Below the pieces are notes generated by a model. It searched no databases. It was not told where the DNA came from and was given only the letters and a program-made list of their open reading frames with translations. A program made the translations under genes and the position numbers. A stretch of DNA of 29,789 bases from a virus. Below are positions 7,388 to 22,322 of the stretch, piece after piece (the stretch's first letter is position 1; each line of letters opens with the position of its first letter). The stretch spans positions 1 to 29,789 of the IMG/VR virus record IMGVR_UViG_3300035670_000977; one strand, given 5' to 3'.

Positions 7388-8410
7388 TCAGTTACGGATT
7401 TGCACTGGCATAACTAAGTATGTCATATCCATGCTACTCGGCGTCAACACGACCGGAGCCGTCTGCGCATTGGCGGACAGTGTAACCGTTTCGGAATCAC
7501 GCATCGCCTTGAGGCCATCCAGCAGGTAATGCACGTTGAAGCCCCAGTGGCCTTTAGCGGTGCCGTCGTAGGCGATGATTTCAGTGCCGTTGTTGGCATC
7601 GGCCTCAGCGGTGATGGTCAACTGCTTGCCAGCGGTCAGCTTGACGACATCCGCAAGGAGCGCCACACGCTCCAGCGCACGAGCAAAGCGGTGCCGGTCC
7701 AGCGTGATGGTGTGCTCAAAGCTGGCAGGCACCAATGCGGCCACATCGGGGTACTTGCCATCAAAGATGCGGCTGTAGATGGTGATGCCATCACCGGCAT
7801 CGATGACGGCCTGACCAGTGGCGGTAGCAACCGTGACGCTGCGATCCTGCAGCAGCTTCATTGTGGTGGCCGGTAGCACAAGGTCGATGCCATCAGGCAG
7901 CTCTACCGGCACGCGCATGAGTCTATGACCATCGGTTGACTCCATGACGCCTGCTGCTAGGTGGATGCCTTGCAAGATCTGCTTGCTGGCATCGGTGCTG
8001 ACGGCTGCCATGCAGGCGCGCACGCCAGCGGTCAGGTCCAACTCAGCGCTAGGAGCCTCTACAACAGGCAGAGCGGGGTAATCGGCTGCATCACACGCAG
8101 CAAGCCCATAAGAGCCGCTAGAGGCGCTTACAGAGCCATCTGAGAGGGTTACAGGCTCACCATCGTCCATGCGGCTAATCAAACCAGCCAGCAAGCGGTA
8201 CGGCAATGCCACGGCGCCAGCGGTATCAACAGCAGCAGGCACGCGGACGGTGATGCCTAGCTCCAAGTTGAAACCGGTCACGGTCATGGCGCCGCCGTCG
8301 GCGGTGATGAGGCAACAGTCAAGGATCGGATGCGAGCTGCGCACGCCGATCGCTGGTGCAATGGTGCGCAAGGCGTGACTGAGGTCAGCCTGCGTTGTGA
8401 TGAGTTTCAT
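7388..8410 (-). CDS. dnaN: DNA polymerase III beta subunit-like sliding clamp
   Basis: This 340-residue protein begins MKLITTQADLSHALRTIAPA and has the clamp landmarks: S-S-H-P-I-L-D-C-C-L near residue 25, E-S-T-D-G-H-R-L-M-R-V-P in the middle domain, G-K-Y-P-D-V, and a C-terminal Y-L-V-M-P-V-Q-I-R-N (compare the bacterial M-P-M-R-L ending). It is slightly shorter than typical bacterial clamps of about 365 residues, but all three domains appear present. It would encircle DNA and tether a polymerase and other proteins. No polymerase gene is visible in the window, so it may serve host Pol III or a phage polymerase outside it. It overlaps the upstream gene by 4 bp. Confidence 0.9.
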   Translation of the reverse strand: MKLITTQADLSHALRTIAPAIGVRSSHPILDCCLITADGGAMTVTGFNLELGITVRVPAAVDTAGAVALPYRLLAGLISRMDDGEPVTLSDGSVSASSGSYGLAACDAADYPALPVVEAPSAELDLTAGVRACMAAVSTDASKQILQGIHLAAGVMESTDGHRLMRVPVELPDGIDLVLPATTMKLLQDRSVTVATATGQAVIDAGDGITIYSRIFDGKYPDVAALVPASFEHTITLDRHRFARALERVALLADVVKLTAGKQLTITAEADANNGTEIIAYDGTAKGHWGFNVHYLLDGLKAMRDSETVTLSANAQTAPVVLTPSSMDMTYLVMPVQIRN

Positions 8411-8607
8411 GAGGCGGCTTCGGTAAGGATGGAAATGAGCCGGTGATAGTCGGCTTCAAACGAGCTGACCAGTTCAGCCGGTATTGGCTGCTGATCATCC
8501 TGCGCATTGTCGCGGATAGCCGCGGCATACGCAAGCGCTTGGGTCATGCAGTCATGGAGTCGGTTGATGACCGGTTGCTGCTTGACGGAGATGTTGATGC
8601 GATCCAT
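8407..8607 (-). CDS. Hypothetical 66-residue helical protein
   Basis: This is a small, mostly helical acidic protein (QPVINRLHDCMTQALAYAAA, then IPAELVSSFEADYHRLISIL) with no domain I recognise. It ends with a 4-bp overlap on the clamp gene. Two starts are possible. ATG at 8607 gives 66 residues and a 64-bp overlap with the RHH gene. ATG at 8547 gives 46 residues and a classic ATGA junction with the RHH stop. The N-terminal residues of the longer form fit the helical pattern, so I list the longer one. Its position suggests a clamp accessory protein, but nothing in the sequence proves it. Confidence 0.6.
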   Translation of the reverse strand: MDRINISVKQQPVINRLHDCMTQALAYAAAIRDNAQDDQQPIPAELVSSFEADYHRLISILTEAAS

Positions 8608-8840
8608 GTGATAACAAACGCGACGATGTGCTCCACCATGCGCCGTGGAATGTCACCACGGACGCAGGTAAGCGCTTCGGACACTAGTCGGTGATAGCCG
8701 GCAACGCTGAGTCCTGCGTCACAGTTCGCAACAAGCGCCCGCGACCGGATCAGCTCCGACCGGCTGACGCCCGCCATGGCTGCGTGGTGGTCTAGCACTG
8801 CAAGGTCTGCAGGCGTGAACCGGACTTTGATTTCCTTCAT
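8544..8840 (-). CDS. Ribbon-helix-helix DNA-binding protein beside the iteron region
   Basis: The first 40 residues of this 98-residue protein fit a ribbon-helix-helix fold: a beta strand MKEIKVRFTP, helix A ADLAVLDHHAAMAG and the turn V-S-R-S-E-L-I-R-S. RHH proteins of the CopG/Arc type bind direct or inverted repeats as dimers. The start codon lies 5 bp from the first copy of a 12-bp repeat array, so this is the obvious candidate to bind it, either for autoregulation or origin control. The last 20 residues, Ser/Thr-rich, overlap the next gene and look poorly constrained. DNA binding is inferred from the fold; the target is a guess from position. Confidence 0.72.
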   Translation of the reverse strand: MKEIKVRFTPADLAVLDHHAAMAGVSRSELIRSRALVANCDAGLSVAGYHRLVSEALTCVRGDIPRRMVEHIVAFVITWIASTSPSSSNRSSTDSMTA

Positions 8841-8845
8841 TCGGT

Positions 8846-9205
8846 GGCGGACGCAAAGAATGCAGTGTACAACAGCGTTTTCAGCGATGGCGGACGCAAG
8901 TAGGTCATAGGCGGACGCAAAAAACCTAGTCGTAGCAAGGGAGGACGCAAAATCGCGGTTTTTCCTTACCCCCTATATGTTTCACGTTTCTTCCCCCTTC
9001 TCGTTTTTCTATACACGTTATTTATCCCCTATTTGCGTCCGCCAAGGTAAAAAGATAGATATAGACAGGGTTTTTGCGTCCGCCATTTGCGTCCGCCTAG
9101 CGTCCGCCGTGACGCAAGTTGCGTCCGCCAACCGTCTCACCATGCGTCCATCTTGAGACCCTCGATAAGACGGTCTCTGGATTTGCCGCCTCGGGCGGAC
9201 GCAAG
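8846..9205. repeat. Opposed arrays of a 12-bp repeat (GGCGGACGCAAA) around a pyrimidine-rich core; candidate origin
   Basis: Plus-orientation copies lie at 8846-8857, 8889-8900, 8910-8921 and 8940-8951 (one base changed). Reverse copies lie at 9032-9043, 9073-9084, 9086-9097, 9100-9108 (short) and 9118-9129. The stretch 9111-9125 is a perfect palindrome, GACGCAA-G-TTGCGTC. One more copy (9194-9205) lies inside the primase coding region. The core 8952-9031 is strongly pyrimidine-rich on the plus strand, with C-runs and two related segments starting CACGTT at 8983 and 9014. No gene fits in 8841-9136. Iteron arrays next to replication genes suggest a replication origin. A regulatory region bound by the adjacent RHH protein is the main alternative. 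Confidence 0.75.
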
Positions 9206-11494
9206 TTTCGGGAAGATTTGGCGTAGCGCCGGCACCAGCAGCCGTGGCGCCTTGACCGTGCGGTCGCTCGGCGGGTCCATAAGCCAGCGGTCATTCTTAT
9301 CTAGATAGCCCTCATCTCTGTACCAAGTTTGCAATGCATCCCAAACGCGCTTTACGGCCACCGATGAACCTTCTTCATAGTGCAATCCAATAGCGTCACA
9401 AAACTCCCAGATGTGACAACTTGCACGCCTTACATCTTCCATTGCCTGCCGGCCTGAGCTGTAATCAATGCCATGCTCAATGGACAGAGACAATCCCTCT
9501 AGCAGCCAATTTAAGAACGCTGGGCATATCTGCTGCTGGATAAAGTCTGGGTCATCCTTTAATCGTGGGTCGGCTTGAATGTGGCTTGATTCTGTAGGCG
9601 TTGCCATGAACGTCTTGCAAAACTTAAACACATGAAACCGCGTCTCAATGGCCACCTGATCGCCTGCTAGCGATGGGTCTTTGTTCAGGTTGAACACGAA
9701 GAGCGATGAGGGTACAAACTGCGATTCCTGTACACCTTTCAGCTCGTAAGACAGCTCTTCGCCGCTGATAGCAGCCTTGAGGGATTGCAGGTTGTCAATG
9801 TGTACAAACTGGCTGTTTTCAGATGACCAGTTGACCGATGCACCACGCAGCGGAGCGATCGGGAACTTGCGGCCTTGGTCGTACTGGCGGAAGTCAGCCA
9901 AGGTGCAGGACGTGAAATTGCGGCTGCCAAGGGTGTCGCGCAGGGCGGTGCGGATGGTGTCTTTGCCGTTGCTGCCTTCACCGATCATGAGCACGGCCCG
10001 TGGCCTGCCGCGTGTGGCGCGGTATTTGGTTAGGTCAAGACCACTGCCAAGGATGCGCTGCAGCGTGTCGCGGTCGGTCGGTTCAACAGCTTCGAGCAGC
10101 CGCCATAGGTGTTGCGGGTTTGCTTCGGGGTCGTAGGCATAGGCGGTGACGTATGTGAACGCCGTGTCTGGGTCGTGTGGCGTAAAGCTGTAGTTGAGCT
10201 TGCGGCCATTCCATGACCACGACACCACGCCATTGGCGCAGTTGATCGCATTTGATGGGTTGACTGGTACTGGGTCCAGCAGCCGCCGCATCCACACCAG
10301 CGCCTCATCGACGTATTTAGGGCGCTTCCATGGGTAGGAGTGCTCGCCAGTTTTGGCATCAACGACATGCATTTGCGACAGCAGCGCTGCAATGCTGGGC
10401 GCCAGCTCTTCATCGGTGATGGGCTTGTAATGGGTGCCGCACCAGTAATGGAGCACGTTGTCAACGCAGATCCAGCGTGGCGACTGTGACTGGAAAACGT
10501 GCTGGACCACAAGATCTAGCCATTCGGTATCGGTTTTGCTGTAGAGGCGCAGGTTGATGACCTCTGGCTCTACGGCTTGACGCTTACCACGAGCAACGGG
10601 AACTGGCGGCTTCCAGCCGTGATGCCGCGCCCAGTACCAAAAGGTGCCAGCACTGATCTGGTCGCCACCTGAGCTGGCGATCTGTTGCAACCCCTTCCAT
10701 TCAGGGCTGTGCTGCTGCATGAGGCTGATGGCTTGATCTACGTCGCCGCAGGCTTTGATCAGACCCCAGAAAATGTTGCGGTAAATGTGGTAGGTGCCGG
10801 TACCCGGCTGCCGTGGCGGTATGCAGGCAAGCGCCTCGCGCACTTCATCAATGCTGCGCTCGATCGGTTCGGCATGGGACTGCGCTGGCTTTTCGTGCTT
10901 GTAATAGGTCTCAGACGGCAGCGCTGCTTCGATGTCTGCAACGCTATAGCGGTGCCCTGTATGGGACACCATTTGGCACATCTCGCCTAGCCCGCCATCA
11001 GCACCGACGTGGTAGGTGCCCGGCAATCGCATGACACGAGCAGGATTTTTGATGCTGCGATCTGCATCGGCGTAATCAAGCAAGCGAGCTTGCAGCAATC
11101 GCCAGTGCTCAATGGTGATCGGCTCGGACAGAACCCAGTAATTATGTATCGACTTGCCGCCGGTTGAGACCTGCATAGTCGGCTCTGGCAGCCGCAGTTC
11201 TTTCCATGCGGTGAGCTGCCAATCGGTTGGCCGGTTGTCCCATTCGCAGAAGAATGCGCGGCAAGTGGTGATGTCTGCATCCTTGTCGCCGCCGTCGTTG
11301 ATGACCACATAAACGCCGCGGCCTTCGCGCTGCCATTCGTTAATGCGGATGCGCGAAAAACCGCCTTTGCGGCCAGCGTCATCAGCTTTCTTAGGATTCT
11401 CCGCGTGATAAAACGCCCGCAGGCGAATCTCTCCGGCAGGCTTGCCAAGCGCATGGACAAACTGCCTGCCCAGCTCAAAGTCAATTTTCTTCAT
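9137..11494 (-). CDS. Primase / superfamily 3 helicase
   Basis: The N-terminal part of this 785-residue replication protein looks like an archaeo-eukaryotic primase: CEWDNRP at about 83-89, the S-T-G-G-K-S-I-H-N-Y-W block at 110-120, and R-V-M-R-L-P-G-T-Y-H at 153-162. A PriCT-like helical domain follows (about 213-292). The C-terminal half is a D5/P4-type SF3 helicase with Walker A GEGSNGKD at 505-512, NWSSEN near 555-560 and F-N-L-N-K-D-P near 601-607. ATG at 11494 is chosen because GGAG lies just upstream and the RHH gene before it overlaps by 3 bp (its TGA shares two bases with the ATG); an open frame continues to 11692 but is non-coding in character. One 12-bp repeat copy encodes L-A-S-A near its C-terminus. 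Confidence 0.88.
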   Translation of the reverse strand: MKKIDFELGRQFVHALGKPAGEIRLRAFYHAENPKKADDAGRKGGFSRIRINEWQREGRGVYVVINDGGDKDADITTCRAFFCEWDNRPTDWQLTAWKELRLPEPTMQVSTGGKSIHNYWVLSEPITIEHWRLLQARLLDYADADRSIKNPARVMRLPGTYHVGADGGLGEMCQMVSHTGHRYSVADIEAALPSETYYKHEKPAQSHAEPIERSIDEVREALACIPPRQPGTGTYHIYRNIFWGLIKACGDVDQAISLMQQHSPEWKGLQQIASSGGDQISAGTFWYWARHHGWKPPVPVARGKRQAVEPEVINLRLYSKTDTEWLDLVVQHVFQSQSPRWICVDNVLHYWCGTHYKPITDEELAPSIAALLSQMHVVDAKTGEHSYPWKRPKYVDEALVWMRRLLDPVPVNPSNAINCANGVVSWSWNGRKLNYSFTPHDPDTAFTYVTAYAYDPEANPQHLWRLLEAVEPTDRDTLQRILGSGLDLTKYRATRGRPRAVLMIGEGSNGKDTIRTALRDTLGSRNFTSCTLADFRQYDQGRKFPIAPLRGASVNWSSENSQFVHIDNLQSLKAAISGEELSYELKGVQESQFVPSSLFVFNLNKDPSLAGDQVAIETRFHVFKFCKTFMATPTESSHIQADPRLKDDPDFIQQQICPAFLNWLLEGLSLSIEHGIDYSSGRQAMEDVRRASCHIWEFCDAIGLHYEEGSSVAVKRVWDALQTWYRDEGYLDKNDRWLMDPPSDRTVKAPRLLVPALRQIFPKLASARGGKSRDRLIEGLKMDAW

Positions 11495-11945: not shown

Positions 11946-14204
11946 ATGACCTACAAAGACTTCCTAGCCTCAAAATCCACAGCCTGCGCGCCTGCAGGTT
12001 TTGACCCGCCTAGCTTCACCGCGCCGCTGTTCCCTTTTCAGCGGGACATCGTGACCATGGCTTGCCGTGTCGGCAAGTTCTGCATCTGGGCTGACTGCGG
12101 CATGGGCAAAACGGCCATGCAGCTTGAGTGGGCGCATCAAGTGCATCAGCACACCGGCGGCAATGTGCTGGTCCTAGCGCCGCTGGCCGTGGCGCATCAG
12201 ACCGTGAGAGAGGGTGCCAAATTCGGCATCCCGTGCGCGTTCGCTGCGACGCAAGCCGACGTGCAGCCCGGCATCACGATCACCAACTACGAGAAGCTCA
12301 GTCATTTTGATCCAGCAGCTTTTGACGGCGTGGTGCTCGATGAGAGCAGCATTCTCAAGGCGTACACCGGCAAGATCCGCAACCAGATCATTGAGTCGTT
12401 CAGCCAGACACCGTTCAGGCTGGCCTGTTCAGCCACACCAGCGCCCAACGATCACATGGAGCTTGGCAATCATGCTGAGTTCATCGGCGTGATGACCCGC
12501 ACCGAAATGCTGGCCATGTTCTTTGTGCATGATGGGGGCGACACGAGCAAATGGCGCCTCAAGGGTCACGCCAAGGACAAGTTCTGGGAGTGGGTCTGCA
12601 GTTGGGCGGTTACCATCCGCAAACCATCGGACCTTGGCTACGAGGATGGCAACTTCATCCTGCCTGAGCTGCGGATCCAAGACTGCACAGTTGAGACACC
12701 GCGCGAGGCTATGGCAGATGATGCTGTCCAGATGGCACTGTTTGCTATGGAAGCCCGTACGTTGAGCGATCAGCGGCAAGTGCGTAAGGCGTCACTGCAG
12801 ATGAGGGTCGATGCCGCTGCGGCGCTGGCCAACGACAGCACTGAGCAATGGCTGATCTGGTGCGATCTCAACGATGAGTCAAAGGCACTCACTGCTGCCA
12901 TTGATGGCGCGGTCGAGGTATGTGGTAGCGATAGCGATGACCACAAGCGCAAAGCCGCGATTGATTTCCAAGACGGCAAAATCCGCGTACTGGTCAGCAA
13001 GCCCAGCATCTTTGGCTTTGGCTTGAACTTTCAAGGTTGCCACAATGTCGCCTTTGTTGGTTTGTCACACAGCTACGAGGCGTTCTATCAAGCGATCCGG
13101 CGTTGCTGGCGTTTTGGTCAGCAGCATCCGGTCAATGCACACATCATCTACGACGTGGCTGAAGGGCGCGTGATTGAAAACATCCGCCGTAAAGAGGCGG
13201 ACAGCATCGCAATGGCTGAATCAATGGTCACCATCATGAAACAAACCACTATGGAACAACTCAAGAAGATCCAGCGTCAAGTGGCGCCGCATGTCACTGA
13301 GCACAAGTCCGGCGACAATTGGGATCTGTACATGGGCGATTGCGTCGAGAGCATCAAGCAACTCGATTCCGATAGCATCCACTACAGCATTTTCAGCCCG
13401 CCCTTTGCGTCGCTGTACACCTATTCAAACAGCGACCGTGACATGGGCAACAGCCGTAATGATCAGGAGTTTTTCGATCACTTTGTCTATCTAGCCAAGG
13501 ATCTGCATCGGGTGATGATGCCCGGCAGGCTGATCAGTTTCCATTGCATGAACCTGCCCAGCAGCAAAGAGCGTGATGGCTTTATCGGCGTCAAGGATTT
13601 CCGCGGTGACATGCTGCGCATCTTCCAGTCGGCTGGATTTGTGTTCCATTCAGAAGTATGCATCTGGAAAGATCCAGTGACTGCGATGCAACGCACCAAA
13701 GCGATCGGGTTACTACACAAGCAAGTGCGCAAGGATTCAGCCCTTAGCCGCCAAGGCATCCCTGACTATTTGGTCACGGTACGCAAGCTGGGCGACAATC
13801 CTGAGCCATGTGAAGGACCATTTACGAAGTTTGCCGGCGAGAATCCACCCGCCAAAACTGGCGACGCGATCAAAGACAGCATCAACATCTGGCAGCGGTA
13901 TGCCAGCCCTGTATGGATGGACATCAATCCATCTGACACGCTGCAATACCGCAGCGCCCGCGCCAATGAGGATGAGCGACACATTTGCCCGCTGCAGCTT
14001 GAGGTGATCCGCCGCGGACTGCAGCTTTGGAGCAATCCAGGCGATCTGGTGCTCAGTCCATTTGCCGGCATCGGCAGCGAGGGATACGTCAGCCTGCAGA
14101 TGCAGCGGCGCTTCGTTGGCTTCGAGTTGAAGCCCAGCTATTTCAACTGCGCGGTCAAGAACCTGAAGCAGGTTGAGGCACACAAGCAAGGGGAGTTGGT
14201 GTGA
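11946..14204 (+). CDS. SNF2-type helicase fused to a DNA methyltransferase
   Basis: This 752-residue protein has two enzymes in one chain. Residues about 1-440 are a superfamily 2, SNF2-like ATPase: Walker A DCGMGKT at 50-56, DESS at 132-135, SAT at 162-164 and QAIRRCWRFGQ at 382-392. Residues about 455-745 are an amino-methyltransferase of the N6-adenine/N4-cytosine type: SPPF at 484-487 (catalytic motif IV) comes before SPFAGIG at 704-710 (cofactor motif I), so the motif order is the beta class. It probably translocates on DNA and methylates a specific site, perhaps to protect phage DNA from restriction. Its C-terminal codons overlap the next gene by 4 bp. Function is inferred from the domains. 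Confidence 0.88.
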   Translation: MTYKDFLASKSTACAPAGFDPPSFTAPLFPFQRDIVTMACRVGKFCIWADCGMGKTAMQLEWAHQVHQHTGGNVLVLAPLAVAHQTVREGAKFGIPCAFAATQADVQPGITITNYEKLSHFDPAAFDGVVLDESSILKAYTGKIRNQIIESFSQTPFRLACSATPAPNDHMELGNHAEFIGVMTRTEMLAMFFVHDGGDTSKWRLKGHAKDKFWEWVCSWAVTIRKPSDLGYEDGNFILPELRIQDCTVETPREAMADDAVQMALFAMEARTLSDQRQVRKASLQMRVDAAAALANDSTEQWLIWCDLNDESKALTAAIDGAVEVCGSDSDDHKRKAAIDFQDGKIRVLVSKPSIFGFGLNFQGCHNVAFVGLSHSYEAFYQAIRRCWRFGQQHPVNAHIIYDVAEGRVIENIRRKEADSIAMAESMVTIMKQTTMEQLKKIQRQVAPHVTEHKSGDNWDLYMGDCVESIKQLDSDSIHYSIFSPPFASLYTYSNSDRDMGNSRNDQEFFDHFVYLAKDLHRVMMPGRLISFHCMNLPSSKERDGFIGVKDFRGDMLRIFQSAGFVFHSEVCIWKDPVTAMQRTKAIGLLHKQVRKDSALSRQGIPDYLVTVRKLGDNPEPCEGPFTKFAGENPPAKTGDAIKDSINIWQRYASPVWMDINPSDTLQYRSARANEDERHICPLQLEVIRRGLQLWSNPGDLVLSPFAGIGSEGYVSLQMQRRFVGFELKPSYFNCAVKNLKQVEAHKQGELV

Positions 14205-17539: not shown

Positions 17540-17754
17540 CCAGCTATGTAACAGGTAACAGCAAAGAAATAGCAGGATTGCTAGCGGCCTTTGGTATTGA
17601 ATGCAAAGGCGTTACGGCATTTCGCTTAAATGTTGAGCCAGAAAGCGTTGTCCGACTTGAGCTAGAGCGATGCGTTACCGACGATGAAGCATTAGAGATG
17701 ACTCAATGGGTACTAGCAAACAACATCAAAGCGGAGCAACTTAATGACCTCTAA
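17536..17754 (+). CDS. Hypothetical 72-residue protein
   Basis: This is a small acidic protein with an N-terminal helical segment (K-E-I-A-G-L-L-A-A-F-G-I) and a beta-like middle, F-R-L-N-V-E-P-E-S-V-V-R-L-E-L-E. The C-terminal helix is M-T-Q-W-V-L-A-N-N-I. There is no recognisable domain. It is coupled to the previous gene by ATGA and overlaps the exonuclease start by 11 bp; its last codons carry the GGAG Shine-Dalgarno sequence for that gene. It is more AT-rich than its neighbours. Confidence 0.65.
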   Translation: MTSYVTGNSKEIAGLLAAFGIECKGVTAFRLNVEPESVVRLELERCVTDDEALEMTQWVLANNIKAEQLNDL

Positions 17755-18526
17755 CTCTGACTACCACGCCGACCCAGCCGTCAGCGCCAGCCACTTCAAA
17801 GCGGTAATGCAATCGCCTTACCACTACTGGAGCCGGTACGTTGACCCTGACCGCAAGCCTGTCGAGCCAACGGCTGCGATGAAGCTGGGCAGCCTTGCCC
17901 ATTGCGCCATCCTTGAGCCTGACGAGCTGCTGCAGCGCTACGGCGTCTGCGCATCACGCACCACCAAGGCTGGCAAAGAGCAAGCCGCAGCCATGGAAGC
18001 CGAAGGCATTGAAGCTGTCACCAGCAGCGACATGGCACTGGCGCTCAGCATGGCAGCAGCAGTCCGCAACCATCCGGCTGCATCAGCGCTGCTAGCTGAC
18101 GGCAAAGCAGAGCAGAGCTTTTGGTGGGATGACCCATCCAGTGGCCTGCGTTGCAAGTGCCGCCCTGACTGGTACTTCGGCTCAACCGTGGTTGACATCA
18201 AGACCACTACGGACGCCAGCCCGCAGGCATTTGCCCGCAGCGTGGCGACCTTTGCTTACCACATCCAAGCGGCGCATTACCTAGCCGGCTTGCACGGCGC
18301 TGAGCGCTTTGTATTCGTCGCGGTTGAGAAAACCTACCCGCACGCTGTTGCGGTGTATGAACTCGACGCTGATGCGCTTGCATTAGGGCGAACCACGCGC
18401 GACAATGCACTTGACGTGATCGCTGGTTGCAGGGCTGCCGATGTGTGGCCGGGCTACAGCGACACGGTGCAAACCCTAAGCCTGCCTCGGTGGGCAACAA
18501 ATCCCATTCAAACAGAGACATTCTGA
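17744..18526 (+). CDS. RecE-like 5'-3' exonuclease (PD-(D/E)XK)
   Basis: This 260-residue exonuclease is of the RecE/exodeoxyribonuclease VIII type. Motifs are Y-H-x-D-P-A-V-S-A-S near the start, G-S-L-A-H53 with L-E-P after it, E123-x-S-F-W-W, C-K-C-R-P-D142-W, V-V-D151-I-K153-T-T and Y-H-I-Q175-A-A-H-Y. These give the core nuclease residues H, D, D-x-K and Q. It resects double-stranded ends to leave 3' single strands for the annealing protein encoded next, with which it shares ATGA. A GGAG sequence 7 nt before ATG 17744 supports the start. Confidence 0.88.
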
Positions 18527-19284
18527 TGACCAGCAATTTGACCATTACCACTTGGACACCTGACCAAGTGCAACTGATCAGCAGCACCATCGCTCCGGGC
18601 TGCACCAATGACGAGCTGAGGCTGTTTGCCTATGCCTGCCAGCGCACTGGGCTTGATCCGTTCAGCAAGCAGATCTATGCCATCAAGCGTGGCGGCAAGA
18701 TGACCATTCAGGCCGGCATTGACGGCCTGCGTGCCATTGCCGAGCGCACCGGACAACTGGACGGTAGCGAGACCTACTGGTGCGGCGAAGAGGGCGATTG
18801 GCGTGACGTATGGCTCTCGGCTAAGCCGCCTGCCGCGGCCAAGACCATCGTGCATCGCAAAGGTAGTCAGCATCCATTTGTCGGTGTTGCTCGCTTTGCC
18901 GACTACAACGCAGGCCAAGGATTGTGGTCCAAAATGCCAGCCGCGATGATTGCCAAATGTTCTGAAGCGCTGGCACTGCGCAAGGCATTCCCTGCTGACA
19001 TGTCCGGCGTGTACACCACCGACGAGATGGACCAAGCCACTGAGTCTGTAACAGTGACCACCGAGGCCGCTCCGGCGTTGCCTGCGGTCAAGGCCAAGGA
19101 CACCAGCAAAACCTTTACCGCTGGTGCTGCTGCCATCGCCAAAGCCAAGAGCCTTGCAGACCTTGAAGAACTGCAACCGCGAATGACGAAACGGCTAGAA
19201 GATGGCGACCTGACGCAGGAGCAACACGACAAGCTCTTGCAGCAGATGCTTGAAAAGGAGGCGGAACTTGTATCTGACGACTGA
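18526..19284 (+). CDS. bet: Single-strand annealing recombinase, Bet/RecT family
   Basis: This 252-residue protein starts at ATG 18526, overlapping the exonuclease stop. The core fits Bet-type RecT proteins: [14 protein letters not shown]-x-K-Q-I-Y-A-I-K-R, then [17 protein letters not shown], and [12 protein letters not shown]. The C-terminal part is Ala/Glu-rich and variable, as usual. It anneals complementary strands exposed by the RecE-like exonuclease. With the VRR nuclease, SSB and helicases it completes a recombination module. The open frame runs upstream of the ATG without coding character. Confidence 0.9.
19256..19261 (+). promoter_or_regulatory. Strong Shine-Dalgarno sequence selecting a TTG start
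   Basis: AGGAGG, preceded by AAA, lies 6 nt before TTG at 19268, inside the end of the Bet gene. It makes TTG 19268 the likely start of the HTH gene, rather than the upstream TTG at 19250, which precedes the Shine-Dalgarno sequence itself. Confidence 0.65.
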
Positions 19285-19471
19285 ACAACTAGCAGAGCGT
19301 TGGGGCTTGAAACCTAGTACGATCAAGTCCCAGCGGCTTCGCGGTCAGGGTCCGCCCTACTACACAGTGCCGCGGTTTGGCTTGCCACTGGGCGAGTCAC
19401 GGGTCAGGTATCCATTACCGGATCTCTTGGCCTTTGAAGAAACACATTCCATCACTCCAATCAACCCATGA
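19268..19471 (+). CDS. Small helix-turn-helix protein (AlpA/excisionase-like)
   Basis: This 67-residue protein is read from TTG 19268: [21 protein letters not shown] followed by G-Q-G-P-P-Y and, later, [12 protein letters not shown]. This is the MerR-like winged helix layout of AlpA/excisionase-type HTH_17 proteins (helix-turn-helix, a G-x-x-P-P wing and a closing Y-x-x-x-D-L-x-x-F). It would bind DNA as an early regulator or directionality factor, but no integrase is in the window. It sits between Bet and SSB with overlaps on both sides. Confidence 0.75.
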
Positions 19472-19815
19472 GTCTTTACGCATCCGGCGTTGTTCGTATC
19501 ATCAGCGAACCGCAAATCAAGTTCTTTGATTCCGGCACCAGTGTTTGCACGTTTGGTGGCGGCATCAGCGAAGGCAAAGACAAAGACGGCAACTACATCA
19601 ACAACGCCATCGACGTTGAGGTGTGGGGCAAAGGCGGCGAAACCATTGCTGACAACTGCAAAAAAGGCGACAGCATTATGGTGACCGGCTCTGTCCGCCG
19701 CCAGGACTGGACCGACAAGGAAACCGGCGGCAAGCGCAGCAAGCATGTGCTGAGCGTGCAACGGTTTGAGTATCTCCCACGCGCTAAGGCAACCGAAGTG
19801 GAGCCTGCCTTCTAA
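19468..19815 (+). CDS. ssb: Single-stranded DNA-binding protein
   Basis: This 115-residue OB-fold protein has the SSB landmarks: G-x-V-R-I-I at the start, F-x-x-G-I-S-E-G, I-D-V-E-V-W-G-K-G-G-E-T-I, then K-K-G-D-S-I-M-V-T-G-S-V-R-R-Q-D-W, and a short tail ending E-V-E-P-A-F, similar to the protein-docking tip of other SSBs. It coats single strands at forks and resected ends. It is coupled to the HTH gene by ATGA, and its stop shares an A with the next start (TAATG). The length is short for bacterial SSB but normal for phage. Confidence 0.88.
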   Translation: MSLYASGVVRIISEPQIKFFDSGTSVCTFGGGISEGKDKDGNYINNAIDVEVWGKGGETIADNCKKGDSIMVTGSVRRQDWTDKETGGKRSKHVLSVQRFEYLPRAKATEVEPAF

Positions 19816-20384: not shown

Positions 20385-20691
20385 GTGTGGTAGCCGCCGC
20401 AATTATGTAGCAGCCACCAATAGCACTAAAGAGGCCATCATCCGCCGCCGCAAATGCAATGCTTGTGACCATTACTGGTACACACGGCAAGAGCATGAGC
20501 AGTTGGTTTCACGCTACGACATCACCTACATCGGAAAAAAACCGATTATGAAACTCGATTGCGACCCCAAGGAACAGCAGCAGCGCCAAGACGAGCTAGA
20601 GGCGCGCTACGCCGCTGATGGGCGGCACGACAAAGACCATCCCATGCACGCCCTGTACACCGGACTAGCAGAGACCAATGATTCTGTGTGA
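20356..20691 (+). CDS. Zinc-ribbon protein, NrdR-like N-terminus
   Basis: This 111-residue protein has C8-P-K-C11-G-S-R-R and C34-N-A-C37 preceded by R-R-R-K, the arrangement of the NrdR zinc ribbon (C-P-x-C-G ... I-R-R-R-x-C-x-x-C). It lacks the following ATP-cone domain, so it is not a full NrdR regulator of ribonucleotide reductase. The rest is charged and polar, with D-P-K-E-Q-Q-Q-R-Q-D-E-L-E. It may bind nucleic acid. It overlaps the dCTP deaminase gene by 14 bp. Confidence 0.75.
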   Translation: MPLVQVPCPKCGSRRNYVAATNSTKEAIIRRRKCNACDHYWYTRQEHEQLVSRYDITYIGKKPIMKLDCDPKEQQQRQDELEARYAADGRHDKDHPMHALYTGLAETNDSV

Positions 20692-21241
20692 CTTCGAGAT
20701 CCAAGAGCTGATCTGCAACGAAGGCATGGTACAAAACCATGATCCTGAGCTGGTTAACCCTGCCAGTCTTGATCTGCGGCTAGGTGATCTGATCCTGCTG
20801 GAATCCGTGCAATCGCACGAAATGATCCCGCTTTCGATCAAACACTACACGCCAGAGCACCCATACGAGCTGGTGCCGGGACAGTTTATCCTTGCGCAGA
20901 CGGTTGAGACCTTCAACATGCCCGAGGATGTTGCTGGTTTGTTCTTCCTGAAGTCAAGCCGCGCGCGTGAAGGATACGAAAACCTACACGCCGGCTATGC
21001 CGATCCGGGATGGCATGGCAGCAGCCTGACGTTGGAACTGAAAAACCAGCGGCAGCTACAACCGTTGCCGATCTATCCGGGCTTGAAGATCGGGCAAATG
21101 GTGTTCTTCCGCATGAGTCAGCGCCCTGCGCTTAGCTATGCCGCTGTAGGGCATTACAACAACGACAAGCTAGTCACGGCCAGTAAGGTCAGCGAGCAGG
21201 TCTTTGGCCGCGTCAAGATGCCACGGCTCAACGCTGCATGA
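20678..21241 (+). CDS. dcd: dCTP deaminase
   Basis: This 187-residue enzyme of the dCTP deaminase/dUTPase superfamily has V-N-P-A-S-L-D-L-R-L-G-D near 26-37, then F-L-K-S-S-R-A-R-E-G-Y, D-P-G-W-H-G-S-S-L-T-L-E-L (with the catalytic Glu in L-T-L-E-L) and P-I-Y-P-G-L-K-I-G-Q-M-V-F. It converts dCTP to dUTP (or to dUMP in bifunctional forms), feeding dTMP synthesis during phage replication. Bifunctionality cannot be judged here. ATG 20678 overlaps the zinc-ribbon gene. Its last 72 bp lie opposite a minus-strand frame. Confidence 0.88.
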   Translation: MILCDFEIQELICNEGMVQNHDPELVNPASLDLRLGDLILLESVQSHEMIPLSIKHYTPEHPYELVPGQFILAQTVETFNMPEDVAGLFFLKSSRAREGYENLHAGYADPGWHGSSLTLELKNQRQLQPLPIYPGLKIGQMVFFRMSQRPALSYAAVGHYNNDKLVTASKVSEQVFGRVKMPRLNAA

Positions 21242-21422: not shown

Positions 21423-22322
21423 ATGTCTGACAGCATCAAAGACTATCTCAACAGTATTGCTAGACATCCACTGTTGACAGCGCAGCAAGAGATACAACTT
21501 GGCCGTCGTGTCGTCAGATGGAGAGAACTGCGCGACAAGGAGCAGTTAACCCCAGACGAGCGGCGCGAGCTGCGCAGCGGTGAACGCGCCCGTCAACGGT
21601 TTATTCAATCCAATCTGCAACTGGTCGTTCATGTAGCGCGCAAGTACGACCGCAGGCAGAACAAGACGCTAGAGCTGATGGATCTGATCCAAGAGGGCAA
21701 TATCGGTCTTGCGCGTGCTGTTGAGTTGTTTGACCCCGCTCGGGGGTACAAGTTTTCGACTTATGCCTATTGGTGGATACGTCAAGGCATCACACGGGCG
21801 CTGATCATGCAGGATTCGATGATCAGACTGCCATCATCGCTGCATGAGCAGTTGTACAAGATTAACCGCACAGCACAAGATCTAACGCATAAGTTGTGCC
21901 GCCAGCCAACACTGATGGAGCTGGCTGATGCTACTGAGATGGATGCCAAAGATTTATCAATGATGCTGAAGCGTGCCTACAAGGTAACTAGCTTAGACCA
22001 AAAAGTGCAAGATGCCGAAAGCGGATCAATTTGCGACACCATTGCAGATCCATCTTGTCTTGAAGAAGATGTTGCAAGATCACAGGAAATAAACAGCATG
22101 ATGAGATATTTTTGCAAGTATCTTGACCCGATTACGCAACAAGTAATACAGGCCAGAAACCTAGCCGTACCAGTCACTTGGACCGCTTTGGAAGATCAGA
22201 TGAATATGAACAAAACCAGACTGCAAAACATCGAACGTCGTGGCATGAATCGGCTGCGTATGCTGATGAGTAACCCTTTGGACGATACGCCGCTTGGACA
22301 TGTCACCACCAACAATCCATAA
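21423..22322 (+). CDS. RNA polymerase sigma factor, sigma70 group 2-like
   Basis: This 299-residue sigma factor has region 1.2 at residues 3-30 (D-S-I-K-D-Y-L-N-S-I-A-R-H-P-L-L-T), region 2 at about 59-135 (I-Q-S-N-L-Q-L-V-V-H-V-A-R-K-Y, D-L-I-Q-E-G-N-I-G-L, G-Y-K-F-S-T-Y-A-Y-W-W-I-R-Q-G-I-T-R-A), region 3 at about 140-215, and a diverged region 4 at about 225-283 (T-R-L-Q-N-I-E-R-R-G-M-N-R-L-R). It most resembles cyanobacterial group 2 sigma factors. AAAAGGA 6 nt before ATG 21423 supports the start. The 3' half is more AT-rich than the 5' half. It would direct host RNA polymerase to chosen promoters, probably phage late or middle genes. Confidence 0.9.
   Translation: MSDSIKDYLNSIARHPLLTAQQEIQLGRRVVRWRELRDKEQLTPDERRELRSGERARQRFIQSNLQLVVHVARKYDRRQNKTLELMDLIQEGNIGLARAVELFDPARGYKFSTYAYWWIRQGITRALIMQDSMIRLPSSLHEQLYKINRTAQDLTHKLCRQPTLMELADATEMDAKDLSMMLKRAYKVTSLDQKVQDAESGSICDTIADPSCLEEDVARSQEINSMMRYFCKYLDPITQQVIQARNLAVPVTWTALEDQMNMNKTRLQNIERRGMNRLRMLMSNPLDDTPLGHVTTNNP

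Follow-up and report, generated by a model that had tools for sequence, protein, structure and literature searches.

The window analyzed here, which is the whole of IMG/VR record IMGVR_UViG_3300035670_000977 (29,789 bases, possibly a fragment of a larger genome), contains an array of opposed short repeats that is very probably the replication origin of the phage. The primase-helicase encoded beside it would bind the opposed arms through its C-terminal winged helix, melt the core between them, and prime, and the host DNA polymerase III would extend. We computed directly the position and geometry of the array, its confinement to one place, the concerted change of its repeats, and its association with the primase and not with the RHH gene on its other side. 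Binding by the winged helix, melting, priming, and polymerase recruitment are inferred, the steps that follow binding by analogy with SaPI Rep, Cch2, and pRN1.

The array lies between the primase-helicase and RHH genes and comprises nine copies of a 12-bp repeat of the GGCGGACGCAA type around an 80-bp core. The features of the region are as follows:

7388-8410, minus strand: DNA polymerase III beta clamp
8544-8840, minus strand: RHH protein, 98 amino acids (NikA-like/RHH_1), adjoining the array in many, not all, relatives
8846-8951, plus strand: iteron arm distal to the primase (copies at 8846-8857, 8889-8900, 8910-8921, and 8940-8951)
8925-8940, minus strand: second conserved element, M2, with its core TTGCTACGACT at 8928-8938
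8952-9031, no strand assigned: core and candidate melting/entry region, exactly 80 bp, A+T-rich and purine/pyrimidine-biased
9032-9129, minus strand: iteron arm next to the primase (copies at 9032-9043, 9073-9084, 9086-9097, 9097-9108, and 9118-9129)
9137-11494, minus strand: primase-helicase, 785 amino acids, with PrimPol (AEP), D5_N, DUF5906/SF3-type helicase, and C-terminal winged-helix domains
9194-9205, plus strand: iteron within the primase gene, where the coding strand reads L764-A765-S766-A767

Repeat mapping and exact-match counts bore out the original prediction of opposed arms with four plus and five reverse copies, and the additional copy that it had placed inside the primase gene was found as well. 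Some copies deviate: in the distal arm, the one at 8889 ends in G and the one at 8940 has A for C at base 3, while in the proximal arm the copy at 9097-9108 is shortened and that at 9118 differs at its last base. Of the 11-mer GGCGGACGCAA, the whole record of 29,789 bases contains eight exact copies, every one inside 8846-9204, and the reversed control has none. The densest 9-mer cluster reaches nine copies per 400 bp, as compared to two to four in 196 of 200 simulated sequences, and once the array is masked the next-best cluster of the window contains three. Short repeats are therefore clustered at a single place of the genome, as in iteron origins.

The core, which occupies exactly the 80 bp predicted between the arms, is 59% A+T as compared to 44% for the window and falls in the lowest 2.8% of 80-mers for G+C; an A+T-rich candidate melting region thus adjoins the repeats, as in iteron origins, with a modest contrast. 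Its description as nearly all pyrimidine was overstated, since the plus strand is 77.5% pyrimidine; the strand bias is nevertheless extreme, being equaled by only 0.05% of 80-mers. The pair of CACGTT segments noted in the core does occur, at 8983 and 9014, but the segments are not conserved in relatives, which likewise have an iteron-free spacer of comparable length separating the arms. What had been called a perfect palindrome at 9111-9125 is an inverted repeat (GACGCAA-G-TTGCGTC), but one centered on an unpaired base. It arises from a degenerate plus-strand half-copy at 9110-9117 beside a minus-strand copy. Because most relatives have a complete head-to-head repeat pair (CGGACGCAAcTTGCGTCCG) at this place, the palindrome belongs to the array. 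We found no promoter-like or terminator-like signals in the array region.

The M2 element (consensus TTGSTATKACT, usually preceded by CCC) lies between the iterons and the core in either orientation, and its 11-mer is enriched 22-fold in arrays as compared to the rest of the loci. It is also present in the arrays of most relatives and in that of Synechococcus phage S-H1 (L079, at about 17706). A hairpin function of M2 was rejected, as a stem of at least three pairs is possible at 12 of 54 sites, against 17.6 expected.

A search with the primase yielded 58 loci, 51 of which had enough sequence for array comparison. In all 51 close relatives, the array is located directly 3′ of the PrimPol/SF3-helicase gene, at near-constant distances from the primase stop codon. 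The search of related phages that had been proposed as a check on the prediction thus showed the array to be conserved. Nearly all close relatives also carry the in-gene repeat at the matching place, each of the phage's own repeat type. The 9-mer CGGACGCAA is present in 8 to 11 copies per record in 18 related records (5.8 to 52 kb), and among the places listed all but one are in the array. Two flank types occur among the close relatives, GGCGGACGCAA and, mostly, TCGGACGCAA. Where the primases are 55 to 70% identical, the repeat positions are kept while every copy is altered together. The changed repeats are as follows:

CGAAGGCAA: L137-L140 and L190-L199
GAAGGCAA: L146, L147, L152, L154, and L155
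CGGAGGCAA: L142 and L210
CGGACCCAA, weak: L143

Relatives that share the PrimPol half only and have another helicase half carry GTRGGAACA arrays at the same place (L216-L220; weaker in L214). A single sequence-specific binder would leave just this pattern, in which many sites change in concert while their positions stay fixed. At one locus (L063), the primase frame is disrupted, with an open frame of 315 residues remaining at the 3′ end, and the RHH match contains an in-frame stop; the array there is intact.

This organization is best read as an iteron origin of the Sfi21/PICI type, in which a melting core between opposed iterons lies just behind the primase gene. The origin of the Streptococcus thermophilus phage Sfi21 is a 302-bp element (Foley 1998, as cited in PMC6356513). 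An origin of this phage on a multicopy plasmid reportedly interferes with phage growth. In the Sfi21 genome (NC_000872), the annotated origin (34487-34784) is located directly 3′ of a putative primase and overlaps the gene end. Nine opposed AGTAAC/GTTACT repeats (0 of 200 shuffles) flank an A+T-rich core, with copies inside the 3′ end of the primase gene. The Sfi21 origin thus shares with the window a non-coding region behind and overlapping the primase gene, opposed repeats, a core, and in-gene copies, and similar k-mer detection worked on both. It differs in its repeat, primase family, and host, its core is far more A+T-rich, and its primase is split into smaller genes. PICI origins are located immediately 3′ of (pri-)rep and are described as an AT-rich region between two iteron sets (PMC6092414), and SaPI Rep and SCCmec Cch2 each rely on a C-terminal domain to bind iterons that directly follow their own gene or operon (PMC7581432). 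The window shows the same organization, with two iteron sets around a presumed melting region immediately behind the primase; the PICI initiator binds through its C-terminal domain, as is proposed here for the primase-helicase. In contrast to PICIs, which are satellites without virion structural genes, the window is a phage record that encodes terminase, portal, head-morphogenesis, and tail-fiber proteins and is thus not itself a PICI.

The lytic tailed phage SPP1 has repeat-plus-AT-rich origins (PMC6316719). By k-mer detection, arrays were also found behind the primases of S-LBS1, Marinobacter PS3, Staphylococcus phiSP15-1, Paenibacillus Bob, and S-H1, the last with a different primase. The original view that the layout is uncommon for a lytic tailed phage was therefore not sustained. 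The layout is not universal either, since no such array was found behind the primases of ten other isolates (Artemius, Vibrio 1.104.O, LoVEphage, Nitro, Floof, Dulem virus 40, Samy, Attoomi, vB_Pae_U5, and Mica). An AGCAGCA repeat behind the primase of Vibrio 489E54-1 is same-oriented and was not counted. S-H1 (L079, 15092-17683) keeps homologous RHH and clamp genes, its primase contains Zn-ribbon and Toprim domains, and it has an opposed repeat of its own, CCGTTCGG. Primase and repeat both differ from those of the window at the same place. In Mycobacterium phage Strobilo (L245), seven ATCTGTCC copies in both orientations are found 140 to 347 nt after the primase stop codon, within the next gene and not in a gap. 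Cyanophage S-2L resembles the window in its homologous PrimPol domain (44% identity; PDB 6zp9) and in the presence, 3′ of the gene, of opposed short repeats (for example, GGTGGCACA/TGTGCCACC); however, it has a VapE-type helicase half and no RHH gene, and its array was not significant by exact k-mers.

Sequence comparison indicates that the C-terminal winged-helix domain of the primase-helicase, rather than the RHH protein, is the likely binder of the repeats. Among 42 primases, residue 756 is alanine in all 25 that accompany CGGACGCAA and lysine or arginine in all 17 that accompany other repeats. Residues 744-745 split identically, being Asp-Arg (His in one) with CGGACGCAA and Asp-Pro with the others. 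According to a tree of the remaining protein, one change on the branch leading to the CGGACGCAA clade probably accounts for this co-segregation; the covariation is therefore statistically weak and suggestive only. The C-terminal 120 amino acids were modeled as a winged helix with modest confidence (mean pLDDT 76.7). The best PDB match of the model was the RFX DNA-binding domain (E 0.02), and its named best matches in a viral library were mostly double-stranded DNA helicases and primases. The primase-helicase also weakly matches PDB 7ola, deposited as "DNA primase." The model puts residue 756 in the helix that precedes the wing, and has the wing begin with the residues encoded by the in-gene repeat; these read LASAR in GGCGGACGCAA phages and LASDR or LASER in TCGGACGCAA phages. 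Origin and initiator could conceivably form a self-referential cassette, in which a change of repeat type would alter the reading edge of the protein and offer an easy route to new, mutually incompatible origins, although we consider this doubtful.

The repeats might instead be binding sites of the RHH protein, forming an operator or partition-like array that controls the RHH, clamp, and terminase genes. The RHH gene begins 5 bp from the last repeat and is conserved at the array side in many relatives and in S-H1, and repeated sites are known targets of RHH proteins. However, the array is intact without an adjacent RHH gene in many loci (L042, L043, L047, L048-L050, L064, L123-L127, L132, L135, and L137-L155). 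A KVRF-like contact strand accompanies both CGGACGCAA and the unrelated S-H1 repeat, while a KINV variant occurs within the CGGACGCAA phages, and no promoter-like site was found in the region. On adjacency and the absence of covariation we rejected the RHH protein as the reader and regard this explanation as unlikely. Of the prediction that the binding protein is encoded next door, the part concerning the primase-helicase is thus supported, and the part concerning the RHH protein is not.

It is also improbable that the origin acts as a single-stranded stem-loop whose structure, and not duplex iterons, is recognized by the PrimPol protein. Such a mode was proposed for plasmid pRN1 and phage BIP-1, where the origin is a 100-nt stem-loop without conserved sequence (PMC4234260). 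Both resemble the window in having a PrimPol-SF3-helicase-winged-helix protein, an origin just 3′ of its gene, and a small repressor gene in the replicon, and the opposed arms of the window can pair to give a single large stem-loop whose loop contains the core (z = -5.1). Yet any opposed repeats would fold in this way, and the core alone is unstructured (z = -0.5). Moreover, in contrast to pRN1 and BIP-1, the window family has sequence-identical iterons, the exact sequence being kept beyond complementarity across all copies of an array, including direct copies on one arm. A packaging (pac/cos) or other terminase-related site is very improbable. Terminase genes of the same direction are found about 2 kb from the array, but it is the primase gene that the array accompanies, the genes downstream being variable; the type of repeat goes with the primase half, and the Sfi21 counterpart is annotated as an origin, with the cos site elsewhere.

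The predicted iteron origin is thus supported, at the level of sequence, by the conserved geometry, the concerted repeat change, and the matching layout at the annotated Sfi21 and PICI/SaPI origins. The GC-skew check gave no such support, as no switch was seen at the array in seven genomes. We propose that copies of the primase-helicase would bind both opposed arms through the C-terminal winged-helix domain, which would place two helicase rings, oriented toward each other, at the flanks of the 80-bp core. These would then melt the core, the PrimPol domain would prime the exposed strands, and host DNA polymerase III, tethered by the phage beta clamp, would extend the primers. The array is situated just 3′ of the initiator gene and slightly inside it; therefore, initiator and binding sites travel as one cassette.

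Besides the beta clamp, which suggests recruitment of the host polymerase, the window encodes SSB and RecT, and no PolA or PolB family genes were present in the 13 records examined. RecT, a PDDEXK nuclease, and SSB form a recombination module at 17744-19815. The window further encodes a dCTP deaminase-like protein (20678-21241), a phage sigma-70 factor with regions 1.2, 2, and 3 (21423-22322), and a 752-amino acid protein (11946-14204) in which a superfamily 2 helicase-like half is fused to an N6/N4 DNA methyltransferase half. The host range of the family is apparently cyanobacterial, judging only from the relatives S-2L, S-H1, and S-LBS1. We found no DNA-level matches in named phages, and the peptide patterns used detected no relatives in 85,000 bacterial and archaeal genomes.

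The layout is not rare in tailed phages and has precedents in a few phages and phage satellites. Our search of the open-licence literature found no papers on an origin in this phage family. The array of the window joins this known kind of origin, and the claim that the layout is unique to PICIs fails because it occurs in tailed phages (Sfi21, S-LBS1, PS3, phiSP15-1, Bob, and S-H1). What is distinctive in this family is the unusually clear concerted turnover of the repeats. Across the family, origins of one geometry come with at least four repeat sequences, each beside its presumed reader, and in this natural series the protein-DNA code of PrimPol/SF3 initiators is testable by swaps of the C-terminal domain.
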